DNA of 44,268 nucleotides from a virus: IMG/VR virus record IMGVR_UViG_3300042486_000369, positions 1 through 44,268 of that record. One strand, given 5' to 3'. The notes below the pieces were generated by a model that did not search any database, had not been told where the DNA came from, and worked only from the letters and a program-made list of their open reading frames with translations. The position numbers were made by a program, and so were the translations under genes. This document shows positions 4,688-39,902 of this stretch, in pieces. The stretch's first letter is position 1. Each line of letters starts with the position of its first letter.

Positions 4688-5311
4688 ATGCGTAAATTAC
4701 ACGACGTCTGCACGATGCCTGATTGCGGCCGACCGCATAAGGCGAGGGGTTATTGCCAGACGCATTACACCCAATTCAAACGCGGCATCTCGCCAGTCGG
4801 GCCGATCAAGACGCGGGAGCGGGACAAGCCGCCAGAATGCACCGAGGATGGCTGCGCCGAGCCTGTGAAGTCGAAGGGGCTGTGCAAGATGCACTACCAG
4901 CGGCTGCTACGCCACGGGCACACACGATACCGCAATCGTAAAAAGCCTGCACGCATTTGTGAGATCGAGGCTTGCGACAACCACCTCTACGCTAGAGGTC
5001 TCTGCCACGCGCATTACATAAAGCAGCGCAAGTGGGAGGCCTTCGGCGTCGACGCGAACAGGTATCAAGAGATGCTGCGCGAGCAGGATGGCGTCTGCGC
5101 GATATGCTCGCAGCCTGAGCGCGCGCCAGACGGATCGTCAGGCAAGATAAAGGACATGGCCATAGATCACGACCACGCTACCGGCGCGGTGCGCGGCCTG
5201 CTCTGTTCGACGTGTAACCGCGCGCTCGGCCTGTTCCGCGATGACAAAGCCTTGCTCAACGCGGCGGTGGCATATCTAGACAAACATCTAGAAACGCCGC
5301 CCTCCGTGTGA
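4688..5311 (+). CDS. Homing endonuclease, endonuclease VII-type HNH
   Basis: A 207-residue protein with two parts. The N-terminal half holds three copies of a C-x4-C-x9-C-x2-H zinc-finger-like unit (first at C8, C13, C23, H26; second beginning at C51; third near residue 90). The C-terminal part has the recombination endonuclease VII core: CAIC, then IDHDHATGAVRGLLC, then CNRALGLF, in which the DHDH and the Asn of CNRALG are the expected catalytic residues and the two Cys pairs bind zinc. Family members cut DNA and often act as free-standing homing endonucleases. The gene sits between the capsid terminator and a virion gene, a typical homing position. Expression is probably limited by the hairpin that contains its ribosome-binding site. 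Confidence 0.85.
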   Translation: MRKLHDVCTMPDCGRPHKARGYCQTHYTQFKRGISPVGPIKTRERDKPPECTEDGCAEPVKSKGLCKMHYQRLLRHGHTRYRNRKKPARICEIEACDNHLYARGLCHAHYIKQRKWEAFGVDANRYQEMLREQDGVCAICSQPERAPDGSSGKIKDMAIDHDHATGAVRGLLCSTCNRALGLFRDDKALLNAAVAYLDKHLETPPSV

Positions 5312-12780: not shown

Positions 12781-12824
12781 CCGACCTCGCGGTAAAACGC
12801 GCCAAGGGCGGCGCACGCGGATGA
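12777..12824 (+). CDS. Very short ORF (15 aa), possibly a remnant cut by the HNH insertion
   Basis: ATG 12777 overlaps the previous stop (ATGA) and encodes MTDLAVKRAKGGARG before TGA 12822-12824, which overlaps the start of the HNH gene at 12821. The Lys/Arg/Gly composition matches the small basic genes just downstream of the HNH gene. It may be the beginning of a gene that the HNH insertion truncated, or chance. Confidence 0.25.
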   Translation: MTDLAVKRAKGGARG

Positions 12825-13372
12825 GCAAACCCGCGCCTTTCACCGACGATACGCGATCCTGCAAGTTTTGTACTAAGTGCGGAGAGGCGCGCCCGATCGC
12901 GCAATTTCACACCACAGGGCAGAAGGTTTCTGGCGAGCCCAAGTACAATTCTTGGTGCAAAACGTGCATAGCAGCCAAGCAGGCTGAGTACCACAAACGT
13001 ACTTGGGGCCCCGACAAACTGCAACACTCTGCTTTTAAGCGCACAAAAAGCGTCCGATCATATCTGGCGTACTTGCGGTGCAAAGCTGTAGCACGCAAAA
13101 AAGGTCTTGAAGTCGCCAGCGTGGATGCGTTGGAAGTTCTTTGGCCTGTGCAACAGGGTAGATGCGCTCTGACTGGGTGGGACATGACCATGGAACTCGG
13201 AAAGGGGTCGGTTCCTACCAACTGCAGCATTGACCGCATAAATTCCAAACTCGGGTACGAAGTTGGGAATGTGCAGCTTGTTTGCCGCGCAGCTAATGTG
13301 GCAAAGAGCGATCTGTCTTTGAGTGATTTTTTACTGCTGTGCCGCTCGGTAGTGGAGGCTAACGATGTCTGA
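12821..13372 (+). CDS. Homing endonuclease, HNH type with N-terminal zinc finger
   Basis: A 183-residue protein. Cys pairs near the N-terminus (CKFCTKCGEARP and WCKTC) form a zinc-binding region. The C-terminal half has the pattern C-x-LTG followed by CSIDRINSKLGYEVGNVQLV and the Asn-rich stretch CRAANVAKSDLS, which is a degenerate HNH/beta-beta-alpha-metal core of the type found in phage endonucleases. It is inserted between small late genes, overlaps the previous mini-ORF by four bases and the next gene by eight, and is more AT-rich than its neighbours, all of which suit a mobile gene. Its target site is unknown. Confidence 0.75.
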   Translation: MSKPAPFTDDTRSCKFCTKCGEARPIAQFHTTGQKVSGEPKYNSWCKTCIAAKQAEYHKRTWGPDKLQHSAFKRTKSVRSYLAYLRCKAVARKKGLEVASVDALEVLWPVQQGRCALTGWDMTMELGKGSVPTNCSIDRINSKLGYEVGNVQLVCRAANVAKSDLSLSDFLLLCRSVVEANDV

Positions 13373-14379: not shown

Positions 14380-14397
14380 ATGGCCTATTCCGGCACC
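14380..14397 (+). repeat. 18-bp duplication of the start of the gene at 15036
   Basis: The first six codons of the HNH gene (14380-14397) match the first six codons of the following structural gene (15036-15053) at 17 of 18 bases. Both encode MAYSGT, after which the two proteins are unrelated. This indicates that the HNH gene sits just after an original start codon and that the structural gene restarts at a second copy. Confidence 0.85.
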
Positions 14398-15036
14398 CGA
14401 TCAGAAGCTAAAACGAAGGGGGAGCACCTGTACTTTACAGGTGTGCCGTGTAAACGCGGCCATGTGGCTACGCGCTTCACCCGCACCGCTATCTGCACGG
14501 ACTGCAACAGGGAACAAACGTGGTTGTGGGCCCAAGCAAACAAAGACAAAAAGCGGAAAGCTGACGCCGATTACCGCAAAAACAACTCGGAAGCACGGCG
14601 CGCCAAGGACCGCGAATACCACCAAACCAACAGGGAAGTCATCCTCGTTAAAAAGCGGGAGTACTTCGCGCGGACCGCAGAGGCGAGACACGCAACGTCT
14701 AAGCTGTGGCGAGAGGCGAACCCTGAAAAAATGCGGGCTGCCCAAAAACGCTTTCGCGAAGCTAATCCACATAAAATAAATGCGTGGGCTGCATTGCGCA
14801 GGTCGCGGAAGAAGCAAGCCAAGCGGATGCTGCAGCCTGAGCAGTTAGACCAAATGCAAGCCCTGTACGCGGAAGCCCGTCGGCTCACTGAGACGACCGG
14901 TATTCGGCATGAGGTCGACCACATCTACCCATTGGTCGGGCCGAACTTCAGCGGCCTTCACGTTCCGTGGAACTTGCAAATCCTTACGTCGGACGCGAAT
15001 AAACGTAAGGGTAACAAATTTGAGGGGGTTGTGTAA
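14380..15036 (+). CDS. Homing endonuclease, HNH type, with borrowed N-terminus
   Basis: A 218-residue protein. After MAYSGT it has the phage HNH N-terminal module (HLYFTGVPCKRGHVATRF, then CTDCNREQ, two Cys pairs for zinc), a long Lys/Arg/Ala-rich helix (about 50-150), and a C-terminal HNH core: RHEVDHIYPLVG, FSGLHVPWNLQILT, ANKRKGNKF. The His-Asp-His, the Asn of WNLQ and the Asn/Lys of ANKRKGN are the expected catalytic and metal-binding residues. The first six residues duplicate the start of the next protein and do not look like part of the HNH family. The stop overlaps the next start as TAATG. Confidence 0.85.
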   Translation: MAYSGTRSEAKTKGEHLYFTGVPCKRGHVATRFTRTAICTDCNREQTWLWAQANKDKKRKADADYRKNNSEARRAKDREYHQTNREVILVKKREYFARTAEARHATSKLWREANPEKMRAAQKRFREANPHKINAWAALRRSRKKQAKRMLQPEQLDQMQALYAEARRLTETTGIRHEVDHIYPLVGPNFSGLHVPWNLQILTSDANKRKGNKFEGVV

Positions 15037-35945: not shown

Positions 35946-37442
35946 GTGTCGCGCAAACCAAGCCCAACTCGCGCCATTGAGCGCGGTCTGAGAAGCGCCG
36001 TTAGCAGCGGCTCGGATTACATTCCCGACATCATCGAGAAGCCACTGCGCGACGTTCTAGACCTACCCTCGCTAACGGTGCCGAAGAAGAAAGCACCGAA
36101 GCAGAAGCCGTTGGCTGCGAAGCCGCCTGCTAAGCCCCCCGCGAAACCGGCTGCCAAGCCTGCTGCGAAACCGGCCGAAAAACCCGCAGCGCGCCCGCAG
36201 AAACTCAAGGGTGCTGAAACGTCCGCCATGGTCAGCACCCGTCGCCCAACCCCACCAAACTACGCGGTCTACGGCAACCCAGACGAGGAGCTACTCGTAC
36301 AGAGCGGGGAGGCTTTGCGCGCCGTTCCAGCGGCTTTCGAAAAGAACATGGGGCTCCTCGCCGAGGAACCTTTCATGCGCGGTATGGAAGGTGCGGCTGC
36401 GGAAGACATCTATGGAGAGGGTATCAGGCGCGGAGCTGATAACCTGAAGTTCATAATGAATGAGTTGATGCCACGTGGGCAGGTTGAGGCTGCCAAGGAT
36501 TGGTACCCGACAGCTAAAATGGTTTCGGAGCGCGCCGCCAGACGCGCTGGGCTTCCGGTTGAAGCGGGTTATGGCACCACGGCAGTGACATCGCCGCAGA
36601 CGCCGTGGGACATCAACGTCGCGCGGCTTGATCGCCTGATGGATATGTACGGTGACAGGTTTGCGGTTGATCCGGCGGCGGCGCGTCGTTGGACTGAGGG
36701 CCGCCTTGCGTCAAATTCTCCGGGCGCGGTCGCTGGGCGCGGCGCTGATTACGTAGACCGCATCGCGCAGACCCCATACGAGGAACTGCAAGATCCCTTT
36801 GATCGTTTCTCTCGCGTTGTCATGGCTGACGCCACGCGCAACAACCCTACAGTCTCCCGCATCAATCTCAGCGGTGAGTATGGCGCGGACTACGGTCCTA
36901 TTACGTGGGGCAGCAGCACAGAAATCAATAAAGCGCTTAACATCCTAGACGACCCGACGATGGAAACCATCAACGCGCAGCTTTTGGGCGGCGGCAAGGT
37001 ACCTTCGTTCTACAACAACATCGCCAATCCCTACAGCGCTGCGCCGATTACCACTATCGATACGCACAGCGCCGGTGCCGCGAGCCTGTTCCCCGGCGGA
37101 GGCAAAGATCCTATCGTGTACCGAGCCATGGGGCTTGGCCGTCCGGGGCCAGAATACCCGTCCGCCGCTTCCGATGTAGCGCGTACAGGAGCTAAGGGCC
37201 TCTACGGCCCGCTGTCAGACATGCACACGCTGGCTGGGCAAGAAATGGGTATGCTACCGCGCGAAGTGCAATCGGCAACTTGGGAAGGCGTCCGTGACCT
37301 GTGGGGCCAGAGCGCTAAGACGGCAAAGCTCAAACAGCAGATCAGCGACATCTGGCGCTCGTCAGATACACCTGACGAGGCTCGTTTCCGCGTAGCGGAC
37401 TTGCTGGGCCGCCCAGTGCGCCGGATGTTCCAAGTTAAATGA
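35946..37442 (+). CDS. Last late protein, Lys/Pro/Ala linker plus large unknown domain
   Basis: A 498-residue protein from GTG 35946 with GGAGG upstream. After a basic N-terminus comes a repetitive Lys/Pro/Ala linker (about 46-86, units of AKPPAKP and AKPAAKP), then a large domain with GYGTTAVTSPQTPWDINVAR, the Asn/Tyr-rich FYNNIANPYSAAPITTIDTH, and near the end MGMLPREVQSATWEGVRDLW. Phage proteins with this last motif exist but have no known function. It is the last gene of the late operon and its stop overlaps the convergent gene on the other strand by eight bases. Confidence 0.6.
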   Translation: MSRKPSPTRAIERGLRSAVSSGSDYIPDIIEKPLRDVLDLPSLTVPKKKAPKQKPLAAKPPAKPPAKPAAKPAAKPAEKPAARPQKLKGAETSAMVSTRRPTPPNYAVYGNPDEELLVQSGEALRAVPAAFEKNMGLLAEEPFMRGMEGAAAEDIYGEGIRRGADNLKFIMNELMPRGQVEAAKDWYPTAKMVSERAARRAGLPVEAGYGTTAVTSPQTPWDINVARLDRLMDMYGDRFAVDPAAARRWTEGRLASNSPGAVAGRGADYVDRIAQTPYEELQDPFDRFSRVVMADATRNNPTVSRINLSGEYGADYGPITWGSSTEINKALNILDDPTMETINAQLLGGGKVPSFYNNIANPYSAAPITTIDTHSAGAASLFPGGGKDPIVYRAMGLGRPGPEYPSAASDVARTGAKGLYGPLSDMHTLAGQEMGMLPREVQSATWEGVRDLWGQSAKTAKLKQQISDIWRSSDTPDEARFRVADLLGRPVRRMFQVK

Positions 37443-37587
37443 TGCGGAGGTCGGGGGGCAACTGCTCCTCGGCCTCTTCGTCCCACTCCTCTGGCAAGTT
37501 CCCGTCGTACAGAACGAACAAATAGTTCTCACGCGTCCGAGGTAAGCCAAGGGCCTCCAGCACGAGGTCATAGCTGTCTTCGCTCAT
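37435..37587 (-). CDS. Small acidic protein at the operon junction, 50 aa
   Basis: The - strand frame starts at ATG 37587 with a ribosome-binding site (GGAGGAAG) and ends with TAA at 37437-37435, inside the end of the + strand gene. The product starts MSEDSYDLVLEALGLPRTRE, continues NYLFVLYDGNLPEEWDEEAE and ends PPDLRII. It is the last gene of the - strand operon and overlaps the helicase remnant by four bases (ATGA), so in the ancestral genome it probably followed the helicase directly. Function unknown. Confidence 0.65.
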   Translation of the reverse strand: MSEDSYDLVLEALGLPRTRENYLFVLYDGNLPEEWDEEAEEQLPPDLRII

Positions 37588-37742
37588 TTCTTCCTCCGTT
37601 TCATGGCGTCCAACAACGCCTCCTGCACGCTCTTCTTGCCGCCCAGCCGGTCCATGACGACGTCGTCGATCGTGTCGCGGGCGAGGATCGGGTAGACCAT
37701 GACTGGCCGGTCATAGCCCGCCTGCTTCTGGCGCATCGCATG
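37584..37742 (-). pseudogene. Left-over original C-terminus of the helicase gene
   Basis: Read on the - strand, this segment encodes HA then MRQKQAGYDRPVMVYPILAR, then DTIDDVVMDRLGG, and ends KSVQEALLDAMKRRKK before TGA 37586-37584. It aligns without gaps to the last 49 residues of the helicase (404-452) with 32 identities. It follows the stop codon of the HNH gene in the same frame and has no ribosome-binding site of its own. Its GC-rich codons match the body of the helicase better than the helicase's present end does. It is therefore best explained as the original 3' end, cut off by the HNH insertion. Confidence 0.85.
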
Positions 37743-38315
37743 TCATGCGTTTTCGCGACTTTGATAAAACCCATGCGCTCGTTCACCCTCTTTGCGAGCC
37801 TGTACGGCAGCCTCGAAACCCTCCGCAGTGAATGGGAACGTCCCGAGGCGGATATCTTTCCCAGCTACACGTATGCGAGCGGCCCAATATGTATATTTGC
37901 CGCTATTCAGAGATAGCTTCGAGACGCCGCAAATTCCGGTTTTACTAGAACGTGGCGCAGACTGGTTTCTTGCGTTTTCGGTATTTGTAACTTCACGTAA
38001 ATTCGACAAGCGATTGTCGTCGCGGATGCGGTTTATGTGATCTATCTGATGTGTAGGCCAAGCGCCGTGAACCCAAGCCCAAACAACTCTATGCGCCGCA
38101 TGCCAGCGCCCAAATAGCTGTCCGGTCATATACCCCGCTGGGTTTTGACAAGAAAAAGCAAGCGCCCCGGCGTAGCGGGCGTTCCACGCGCGGTAGCTGC
38201 GGTGGGTGGCAAACAGCTCTCTGGAGCGTTCTCGCCAATGTAGCGAACCGGTGTCTGGATTGTAATCCAAAAGTTGACGCAGTTGCGCAGCGTCTATTAC
38301 AGGCTTCTTAGGCAT
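37743..38315 (-). CDS. Homing endonuclease, HNH with AP2-like DNA-binding domain
   Basis: A 190-residue protein from ATG 38315 (GTG 38330 is an alternative; GTGGAG lies nine bases before the ATG). The N-terminal part has YNPDTGSLHWRER, the middle the HNH core HRVVWAWVHGAWPTHQIDHI, then NRLSNLREVTNTENARN, and the C-terminal part an AP2-like DNA-binding domain with TGICGVSKLS, WAARIRV and IRLGTFPFTAEGFEA. The catalytic His of QIDHI and the Asn residues of NLREVTNTENARN are present. It lies between the helicase and the helicase remnant, and is more AT-rich than the surrounding genes. Family members move by cutting intron-less or insertion-less copies. Confidence 0.9.
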   Translation of the reverse strand: MPKKPVIDAAQLRQLLDYNPDTGSLHWRERSRELFATHRSYRAWNARYAGALAFSCQNPAGYMTGQLFGRWHAAHRVVWAWVHGAWPTHQIDHINRIRDDNRLSNLREVTNTENARNQSAPRSSKTGICGVSKLSLNSGKYTYWAARIRVAGKDIRLGTFPFTAEGFEAAVQARKEGERAHGFYQSRENA

Positions 38316-38345
38316 TTTTGCGAACTCCACTTCGCTTTAGTGTCT

Positions 38346-38377
38346 GGCGGCGAGGTTGCACCCTCGTCGCCTTTTTT
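38346..38377 (+). terminator. Intrinsic terminator acting on + strand transcripts
   Basis: GGCGGCGAGG (38346-38355) pairs with CCTCGTCGCC (38362-38371) with one G-T pair and a six-base loop, followed by six T residues. It lies between the HNH gene and the helicase, both on the opposite strand, so it would stop late transcripts that run past 37442 before they become antisense to the helicase. Confidence 0.75.
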
Positions 38378-38400
38378 CTTACAGGGGTGGGGTCTAAACG

Positions 38401-39759
38401 TCAATTTTTTCTGCTCTTTAAAGCCTCCAAAAGCACATCTTGCACCGAACGCTTTGTAGCAAGGCGAGCCATTACCAATTCATCTACGGTGTCGCGAGCG
38501 AGTATCGGGTAGACTAAGCATGGACGGTTATGCCCCGCTTGTTTTTGTCTCTGGGGGCCGATACGCTCGATGATCTGCATATGCTCTTCGAGGTTCCAAT
38601 TCACACCGAAGAAGGCGAGGATGTTCCCGCCGTCGGCGAGGTTGAGGCCGTGCCCTGCCGACGCAGGGTGAGCGAATAGTAGCTGGATCCGACCGGCGTT
38701 CCACTGCCTGATCGTATCAGGGTCAGCGTCCAGCACCCGACCTTTACGGAAACGAGCCTGTAGTCGCGCGAGATCGTGCTTGAAGTTATACGCCACAAGC
38801 ACAGGCGCTCCGTTAGCCTCCTCGATGATGCTCTCCAGCGCGTCGAGCTTTGCGTCATGCACTTCCTCCCACGATCCCTCGTCATCCGTGTACGCCGCGC
38901 CGTTGGCGAGCTGCAAGCACTTCTGCGTGCGCACCGCCGCGTTGGCCGCCTCGATCTCACCCTCGGCGAGCATGGCGTACATCTCCTCCTCCATGGCGTC
39001 ATACGCCTTGCGCGCCTTCTTCGGCAGGTCGATGTAGATCGGCAGCGTGTTAGGCTCGTCGACCGCCAGCGCCTGCACAGTGAGGCAGATGTCCTTCAGC
39101 GCCCCCTCGACCTCGCGCTGCGTGTGGTCGTAAGGCACGAGGCTGTAGCCGTCATAGCCCTTGCGGAACCAGCGCTGCTCGAAGGCGCTGAAGGTGCGCC
39201 CGAGGCGCTCCCCCTGATCGAGGAACCACGTCTGCCCCCACAGATCCTTCACGCCGTTGGGCGCAGGCGTGCCTGTGAGGCCGATGAAGCGGCTGACGCG
39301 CGTGTGGGCCACCTTACCCAGCGCAGCGGCTCTGGAGCCTCCCTGACGCAGCCTGAAGGACTTGAGGCGCGTGAACTCGTCCGCGACCACCGTCCTGAAC
39401 GGCCACTCGTCGCCCAGCGTCTCACGCAGCCAGACGAGGTTGTCATAGTTCATCGTGTATATATCTGCGACGTTACGCAGGGCCGCAGCCCGCTCCTTGG
39501 CACTGCCGGTGATGACGCTGACGCGCAGGTGGGAGAGATGGGACCACTTCTCTAGTTCGGCGGGCCATGTCGACCGCGCGACGCGCAGCGGTGCCAGCAC
39601 CAGCACCGGGAAGACGTCCTCTACGAAGTCGAGGGTGTCCAGAGCCGTGAGGGTGGTCACCGTCTTACCGCCGCCCATGGGCATCCAGAGGGCGCAGCGT
39701 GGCGTCCTGTAGATGTGGTCCATGGCCTCGCGCTGGTAGTCGTGCGGGGTGAACTTCAT
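38401..39759 (-). CDS. SNF2/DEAD-type helicase with replaced C-terminus
   Basis: The chosen start is ATG 39759, which overlaps the previous gene as ATGA; it gives 452 residues and begins MKFTPHDYQREAMDHIY. Motifs in order: Walker A GGGKT (29-33), DEFT in place of DEAH (127-130), LTGTP (161-165), FAHPASAGHGLNL (362-374) and QIIERIGPQRQ (395-405). These place it among the SNF2-type phage helicases, which move along or remodel DNA in replication. From about residue 404 onward the codons are AT-richer, and the segment is duplicated as a remnant at 37584-37742. The HNH gene follows 85 bases downstream. Confidence 0.9.
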   Translation of the reverse strand: MKFTPHDYQREAMDHIYRTPRCALWMPMGGGKTVTTLTALDTLDFVEDVFPVLVLAPLRVARSTWPAELEKWSHLSHLRVSVITGSAKERAAALRNVADIYTMNYDNLVWLRETLGDEWPFRTVVADEFTRLKSFRLRQGGSRAAALGKVAHTRVSRFIGLTGTPAPNGVKDLWGQTWFLDQGERLGRTFSAFEQRWFRKGYDGYSLVPYDHTQREVEGALKDICLTVQALAVDEPNTLPIYIDLPKKARKAYDAMEEEMYAMLAEGEIEAANAAVRTQKCLQLANGAAYTDDEGSWEEVHDAKLDALESIIEEANGAPVLVAYNFKHDLARLQARFRKGRVLDADPDTIRQWNAGRIQLLFAHPASAGHGLNLADGGNILAFFGVNWNLEEHMQIIERIGPQRQKQAGHNRPCLVYPILARDTVDELVMARLATKRSVQDVLLEALKSRKN

Positions 39760-39902
39760 TTCAACATCTGCAGCAATGCCAGCTTTTGGCAAGCCGCGTA
39801 TGAGAGCTTTGGCGCACGCTGCCATATCGCGTCGGCGCGCGTCTCAATCTCATCGGCGAGGGCGTAGGCCATTGCTTTCAATTCTTTCTCAGTGCGTTTC
39901 AT
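39756..39902 (-). CDS. Small protein upstream of helicase, 48 aa
   Basis: ATG 39902 has GGAG at a proper distance upstream, and the stop TGA (39758-39756) overlaps the helicase start, which supports both genes. The product starts MKRTEKELKAMAYALADEIE and ends YAACQKLALLQMLK. It is helical, with no recognised domain. Confidence 0.6.
   Translation of the reverse strand: MKRTEKELKAMAYALADEIETRADAIWQRAPKLSYAACQKLALLQMLK

Follow-up and report, generated by a model that had tools for sequence, protein, structure and literature searches.

The DNA analysed, referred to throughout as the window, comprises the 44,268 nt (44.3 kb) of an IMG/VR virus record. Its minus strand carries an intact helicase gene of 452 aa (38401-39759), with SNF2-rel/DEAD matches in Pfam and an assignment to PHROG 62, DNA helicase. 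On the same strand this gene is followed by an HNH gene of 190 aa counted from its ATG (37743-38315; a GTG at 38330 is a possible alternative start), by a displaced native helicase C-terminus, termed the remnant (37584..37738), whose 50 codons begin with the Met of GPMRQ and run through to the stop, and by a small native gene of 50 aa (37435-37587); a DNA polymerase gene likewise lies on the minus strand. Within the helicase gene, the native body (38558..39759) runs to a junction in the ERIG of motif VI, where it is joined in frame to an imported C-terminal coding segment that includes the stop codon (C', 38401..38557). A spacer with a GC-rich hairpin (38316..38400) leads from the C' stop to the HNH start. 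C', spacer, HNH gene and four further nucleotides make up an inserted block of 819 nt (37739..38557), as delimited by alignment with an empty relative, L002 (IMGVR_UViG_3300044695_002920).

An earlier note on this DNA had claimed that the helicase is intact and that its last 49 residues recur beyond the HNH gene. This was confirmed: helicase residues 404-452 and the remnant share 32 of 49 residues in an ungapped alignment (E=4e-15), and the remnant lies, as also claimed, in the HNH frame directly after the HNH TGA. The remnant ATG follows the HNH stop by six bases, and the remnant stop overlaps the ATG of the small gene, so that the remnant has not been parted from its native neighbour and the ancestral junction between the two is intact; a gene akin to the small one sits downstream of the helicase in ten relatives. 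With this spacing and overlap, translational coupling may have been kept. The hairpin in the imported spacer (38346-38371) is terminator-like on the plus strand, with 10 pairs followed by TTTTTT, as judged by consensus scan and folding only; it could halt rightward structural transcripts before they enter the helicase gene in antisense.

The HNH protein matches HNH_3 (PF13392) in Pfam with E=6.5e-16, and the pattern DHIN...DNR..NLR is invariant in the alignment. Of the label AP2-HNH given previously, the HNH half stands; AP2 has no significant Pfam match in the window protein, whose C-terminal part is AP2-like by alignment with its relatives in L003 and L080, where AP2 itself is matched at E=6e-6 and 2e-5, both below the Pfam cut-off. 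No close relatives of the window HNH protein were found in IMG/VR, and that of L003 is only 35% identical to it, which implies two events or more. The gene is optional at the locus: the L002 allele is empty, and of 80 distinct helicases compared, three are directly followed by an AP2-HNH-type gene, namely those of the window, L003 and L080. Such a gene also directly follows a very distant helicase (22% identity) in two other viral contigs, L109 and L110.

HNH genes often ride in introns, and inteins are annotated in the helicase of some Salmonella phages; the locus could accordingly be read as a helicase body that is spliced to the remnant. A group I intron was rejected, since a search of 37000-39800 for a ribozyme core gave no Rfam match (E ≤ 1). 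The HNH gene has its own start and stop, is out of the helicase frame and lies inside neither an intron nor an intein, and since C' supplies a complete end with a stop codon, splicing is unnecessary. We regard this reading as barely credible. From the pattern of the locus, the HNH gene would instead be a free-standing homing endonuclease gene.

Which of the two helicase ends is native was determined with L002, in whose record no HNH relative was found and whose helicase body is 96% identical to that of the window at the nucleotide level. Over 50 amino acid residues, the L002 C-terminus and the remnant are 94% identical, whereas only 32 of 48 residues match between L002 and the present end of the window helicase. 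In the alignment, the left match ends with ...GAGCGTATCGG (38558) and the right match begins with CGATGCG (37738), with 819 foreign nt between them in the window and GC alone in L002, which places the joints to within two bases. As native homology starts at 37738, the four bases 37739-37742 are not native, and the remnant, previously placed at 37584-37742, is shorter by these four bases. Over its first 46 codons it differs from L002 by three synonymous changes and nothing else; either the event happened recently, therefore, or the remnant has been under conservation. The site of the joint is motif VI, which reads ERIGPMRQ in nearly all relatives, and neither new joint rebuilds the full native site, the left one having a recoded right half and the right one having HNH-side sequence on its left. 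The remnant is thus the native helicase end.

The present end differs in composition as the earlier note had described, both it and the HNH gene being AT-richer than the body and the remnant being GC-rich: GC is 0.641 in the body, 0.494 in the present C-terminus, 0.534 in the HNH gene and 0.632 in the remnant, and GC3 is 0.84, 0.47, 0.50 and 0.92, respectively. Of 50 codons compared between C' and the remnant, 12 are identical, 20 differ by synonymous and 18 by residue-changing substitutions. In a tree of helicase bodies, the window and L002 are sisters (support 100) and the window sits on an end branch of 0.019. In the tree of C-termini, the remnant and L002 are sisters (100/100) and the window stands apart on a branch of 0.87; a grouping of the window with L002 is rejected (p-AU 0.02; 0.07 with the remnant added to the group). 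The exact placement of C' is unsure because the alignment is short (156 columns) and the branch long. Body and present C-terminus therefore have different histories, and a shared one had been named beforehand as grounds for giving up the idea of an imported end; so had two C-terminal copies in relatives without HNH, and among 165 loci with a relative of the window helicase only the window has two. Searches for a donor of C' gave a best match of 84% over a 65-residue query that included native body residues, and no match with a GPQRQ site; no donor phage was found for C' or for the HNH gene, and relatives in bacterial genomes amounted to ten loci, all distant or partial.

The two copies do stand in tandem, and one might suppose that the helicase 3' end was duplicated locally and that the copy attached to the body then diverged. 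Against this stand the GC3 shift, the contrast between a branch of 0.87 for the C-terminus and 0.019 for the body, and the 12 of 50 codons that the copies share, at a locus where only 34 of about 397 body codons, and almost none in the remnant, are different from those of L002. Duplication in place is thus extremely improbable, and the claim that the HNH gene arrived with its own helicase 3' end from motif VI onwards, leaving the original behind, is well supported by L002 and the trees.

Related structures were found in other viral contigs. Among the 80 helicases, the largest drops in GC3 from body to C-terminus are those of the window (0.37), L003 (0.275) and L080 (0.274), the next being 0.177, and the same three have the longest C-terminal branches (0.87, 0.84 and 0.39 vs a median of 0.064) on ordinary body branches. 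The helicase ends of L003 and L080 are thus foreign and AT-rich as well. The HNH frame of L003 continues into ATGCGCCAGAACCCGGCGCGC, which is 18/21 identical to the start of the native site (best match in 71 control loci, 16/21), and the remainder of the native end is gone. The body of L080 is 96% identical to that of L024 until identity drops sharply, about 31 codons ahead of the motif VI glycine, and is foreign from there through the stop; next comes the HNH gene, whose frame is closed by the last helicase codons, the point where native sequence starts again. L080 was considered as a further motif VI insertion and rejected as such, since its foreign tract begins upstream and its right joint is at the gene end, as in an ordinary two-sided exchange.

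A second nuclease family shows the same arrangement. In L036/L230 and L048/L051, an Endonuclease_7 gene (E about 1e-20) is inserted in the last helicase codons (L036, 4349-4861; L048, 4349-4843), with the helicase tail replaced and the end of the nuclease extended by the native tail; in L036 and L048/L051 the replacement covers the last 5-6 codons. L048 has GGAAGCGATGAAA-GCTCATGCCCGAAAGTGA...nuclease...ATGAAGCGGAGGAAGAAATGAGC in place of the native GGAAGCGATGAAGCGGAGGAAGAAATGAGC, the form seen in L050, and the displaced native tail MKRRKK with its stop ends the nuclease frame. Five lineages in all thus combine a nuclease gene with a new helicase end and have all or a stub of the old end after the nuclease and in its frame. 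In 126 nuclease-gene intervals examined at the protein level, including those of the window's other three endonuclease-type genes, the window helicase was the one host gene found with a long flanking duplication, so that the form with a stranded exon is rare. Duplication matches at L141 and L249 were rejected, being tandem nuclease genes and not displaced exons. The window is a single metagenome contig, and one could suspect an assembly chimera of two co-occurring phages; the frames are kept at every joint, the native gene junction is intact, and structures of the same class occur in L003, L036, L048 and L080 from other samples, all of which makes an artefact very unlikely.

With the helicase end and HNH gene as query, the same gene pair was found in cultured Guernseyvirinae, in Jerseyvirus and Kagunavirus; these records are related to one another and hence not independent. 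In the loci read, helicase bodies are mostly 84-96% identical between phages, but over the last ~95 codons the sequences sort into discrete alleles. One C-terminal allele is common to SETP7, BPS11Q3, Bas71, Bas72 and K1H (89-100%), which are all without HNH, and all ten HNH-bearing phages read have other C-termini, 69-73% identical to that of SETP7. The C-termini of f18SE, sam and ST1 are identical on bodies 89-95% identical, and those of Jersey and fEg-Eco19 are 98% identical on bodies 86% identical. Divergent helicase bodies thus carry identical blocks of C-terminus and HNH. Among 52 records with the full helicase-end and HNH place, which are likewise not independent, none is near the SETP7-type C-terminus: a construct of the SETP7-type end and the f18SE HNH gene reached a top identity of 91.9%, with phages in which the HNH part is about identical, and among the matches listed near-perfect SETP7-type ends cover 36-37% of the query, i.e. 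have no HNH.

HNH-type C-termini also occur alone. SE479 (L303) and F12013 (L306; body 96% SETP7-like) keep C-termini of the f18SE type, with the HNH gene internally deleted in the former and truncated in the latter, apparently stages of homing-gene loss; AG11 and SP-101 have non-SETP7 ends and no HNH. In the cultured phages, an HNH-type C-terminus without HNH fits loss of the HNH gene, and also fits independent exchange of alleles. The cultured pattern is what a homing gene should leave if it spreads together with a target allele resistant to it and then decays. No displaced native exon was found in the cultured relatives; exchange there was two-sided. In the same helicase family, inteins are annotated in the Salmonella phages fmb-p1, vB_SalS-S10 and Shelanagig, which makes the helicase gene a repeated target of different homing elements.

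Phages recombine freely, and the right joint of the window has no visible homology. A block out of the helicase-HNH region of another phage might therefore have been joined by chance through illegitimate recombination, with no part played by a nuclease, and kept since the helicase stayed in frame. The linkage argues otherwise: in each of the five viral-contig lineages, the foreign helicase end is accompanied by a nuclease gene, the joint lies at conserved motif VI, and in the Guernseyvirinae the linkage is strictly one-way. We judge such a chance event unlikely.

The locus is probably best explained by free-standing homing in which a resistant 3' end was co-converted, the right side was joined at the break and the native end was stranded. 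In a mixed infection, a break would have been made in the native coding sequence of helicase motif VI, at the site where the HNH gene entered; we infer that this nuclease made it and that the new end resists it. The template for repair would have been the helicase 3' end of a donor phage, different in DNA sequence yet working, with the HNH gene behind it. The left side would have paired with the homologous body, and C' and HNH would have been copied, C' becoming joined in frame to the native body. Usually the right side would then pair with homology downstream and the native end would be lost, as in L080 and the Guernseyvirinae. In the window the copy would have been joined directly at the right-hand side of the break, and the native end would have been kept and pushed downstream. 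Repair on the left would thus have relied on homology, and repair on the right on end-joining or on a matching remnant in the donor. Donor flanks appear to have been inherited with the HNH gene in the window, L003, L080 and the cultured Guernseyvirinae.

Free-standing homing genes of phages regularly co-convert the target sequence that flanks them, and the seg and mob endonucleases of T4 are known for intronless homing and marker exclusion (PMC2988022). Like the window, they have a nuclease gene beside a conserved gene, co-inherited donor flanks and a target expected in the neighbour gene; in T4, however, donor sequence takes the place of the recipient flank and the nuclease gene lies between genes, whereas here it lies within coding sequence and the recipient end is kept downstream. 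In Aeh1 nrdA/mobE and T4 gene 39/60/mobA (PMC2988022), an HNH-type gene likewise sits in a functionally critical coding region, but the host gene gives two polypeptides, while the window helicase is completed by the imported end. Collaborative homing of F-CphI with the psbA intron (PMC6083498) and the bypass insert of T4 gene 60 (PMC5009743) also pair a nuclease with a separate sequence thought to protect the carrier's target, and F-CphI shares the Endonuclease_7 domain with the L036/L048 nucleases; protection there comes from an intron or a bypassed insert, not from a recoded exon.

Gene hybrids made by mobile ORFs are described for atp6 of Allomyces macrogynus and for atp6, atp9, cox2 and nad3 of Glomus sp. 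(PMC3630166). As in the window, the endonuclease gene lies inside a protein gene with a foreign C-terminal piece in frame, and the native piece is displaced downstream and close to that of an empty relative. The fungal cases differ in that they involve LAGLIDADG or GIY-YIG nucleases in mitochondria and that their transcripts were studied; ours are of the HNH_3 or Endonuclease VII type, in DNA phages, and known from DNA alone. The window has the mobile-ORF layout, with an in-frame foreign end and a displaced native end, and its element appears to work like these hybrids without being a member of their class. The close structural precedent is thus in fungal mitochondria and the functional one in T4 intronless homing; no phage case of a stranded native exon was found in a search of open full-text literature. 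The observation and main inference of the earlier note hold, and its idea has precedents in these mitochondrial mobile ORFs and in phage free-standing co-conversion.

This likeness suggests a further possibility, in which this layout was present in the donor from the outset, the right homology arm is provided by the displaced native C-terminus, and C' and HNH home as a unit, a stable mobile cassette comparable to an intron that need not splice. Its attractions are the precision of the insertion on both sides of one conserved site, the remnant without non-synonymous change over 46 codons, the stub of the same site at the L003 HNH end, the displaced tail in the nuclease frame in 5/5 lineages, and the mobility of the same layout in fungal mitochondria (PMC3630166). 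It is weakened by the lack of a second copy (no second contig with the exact element of the window was found), by cultured relatives without the displaced exon, and by the divergence of the window and L003 HNH proteins, which calls for at least two events; we consider it possible but doubtful. Equally tentative, and meant as a single joint proposal, is the generalisation that homing genes of at least two nuclease families may carry recoded, cut-resistant 3' ends of their targets as "replacement-exon cassettes", inserting within coding sequence with the stranded native exon as right homology arm. If this were true, such cassettes would invade a coding gene without splicing and without loss of function.

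More generally, a homing gene could enter coding sequence without intron or intein by replacing what gets broken. This would link free-standing homing in phages with the gene hybrids of fungal mitochondria and would explain mosaic C-termini of phage helicases. The cultured Guernseyvirinae, including the E. coli BASEL phages Bas71 and Bas72, offer a ready test, in which one C-terminal allele should be cut and another spread by HNH genes.

The window contains further genes of similar type on its plus strand. An Endonuclease_7-type gene (4688-5311) lies right after the major head gene; its product is 39.7% identical to the L036/L048 nucleases over 68 residues, and no flanking duplication was found there. 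Two endonuclease-like ORFs without Pfam matches (12821-13372 and 14380-15036) lie among structural genes, and the phage may carry four homing-type genes.
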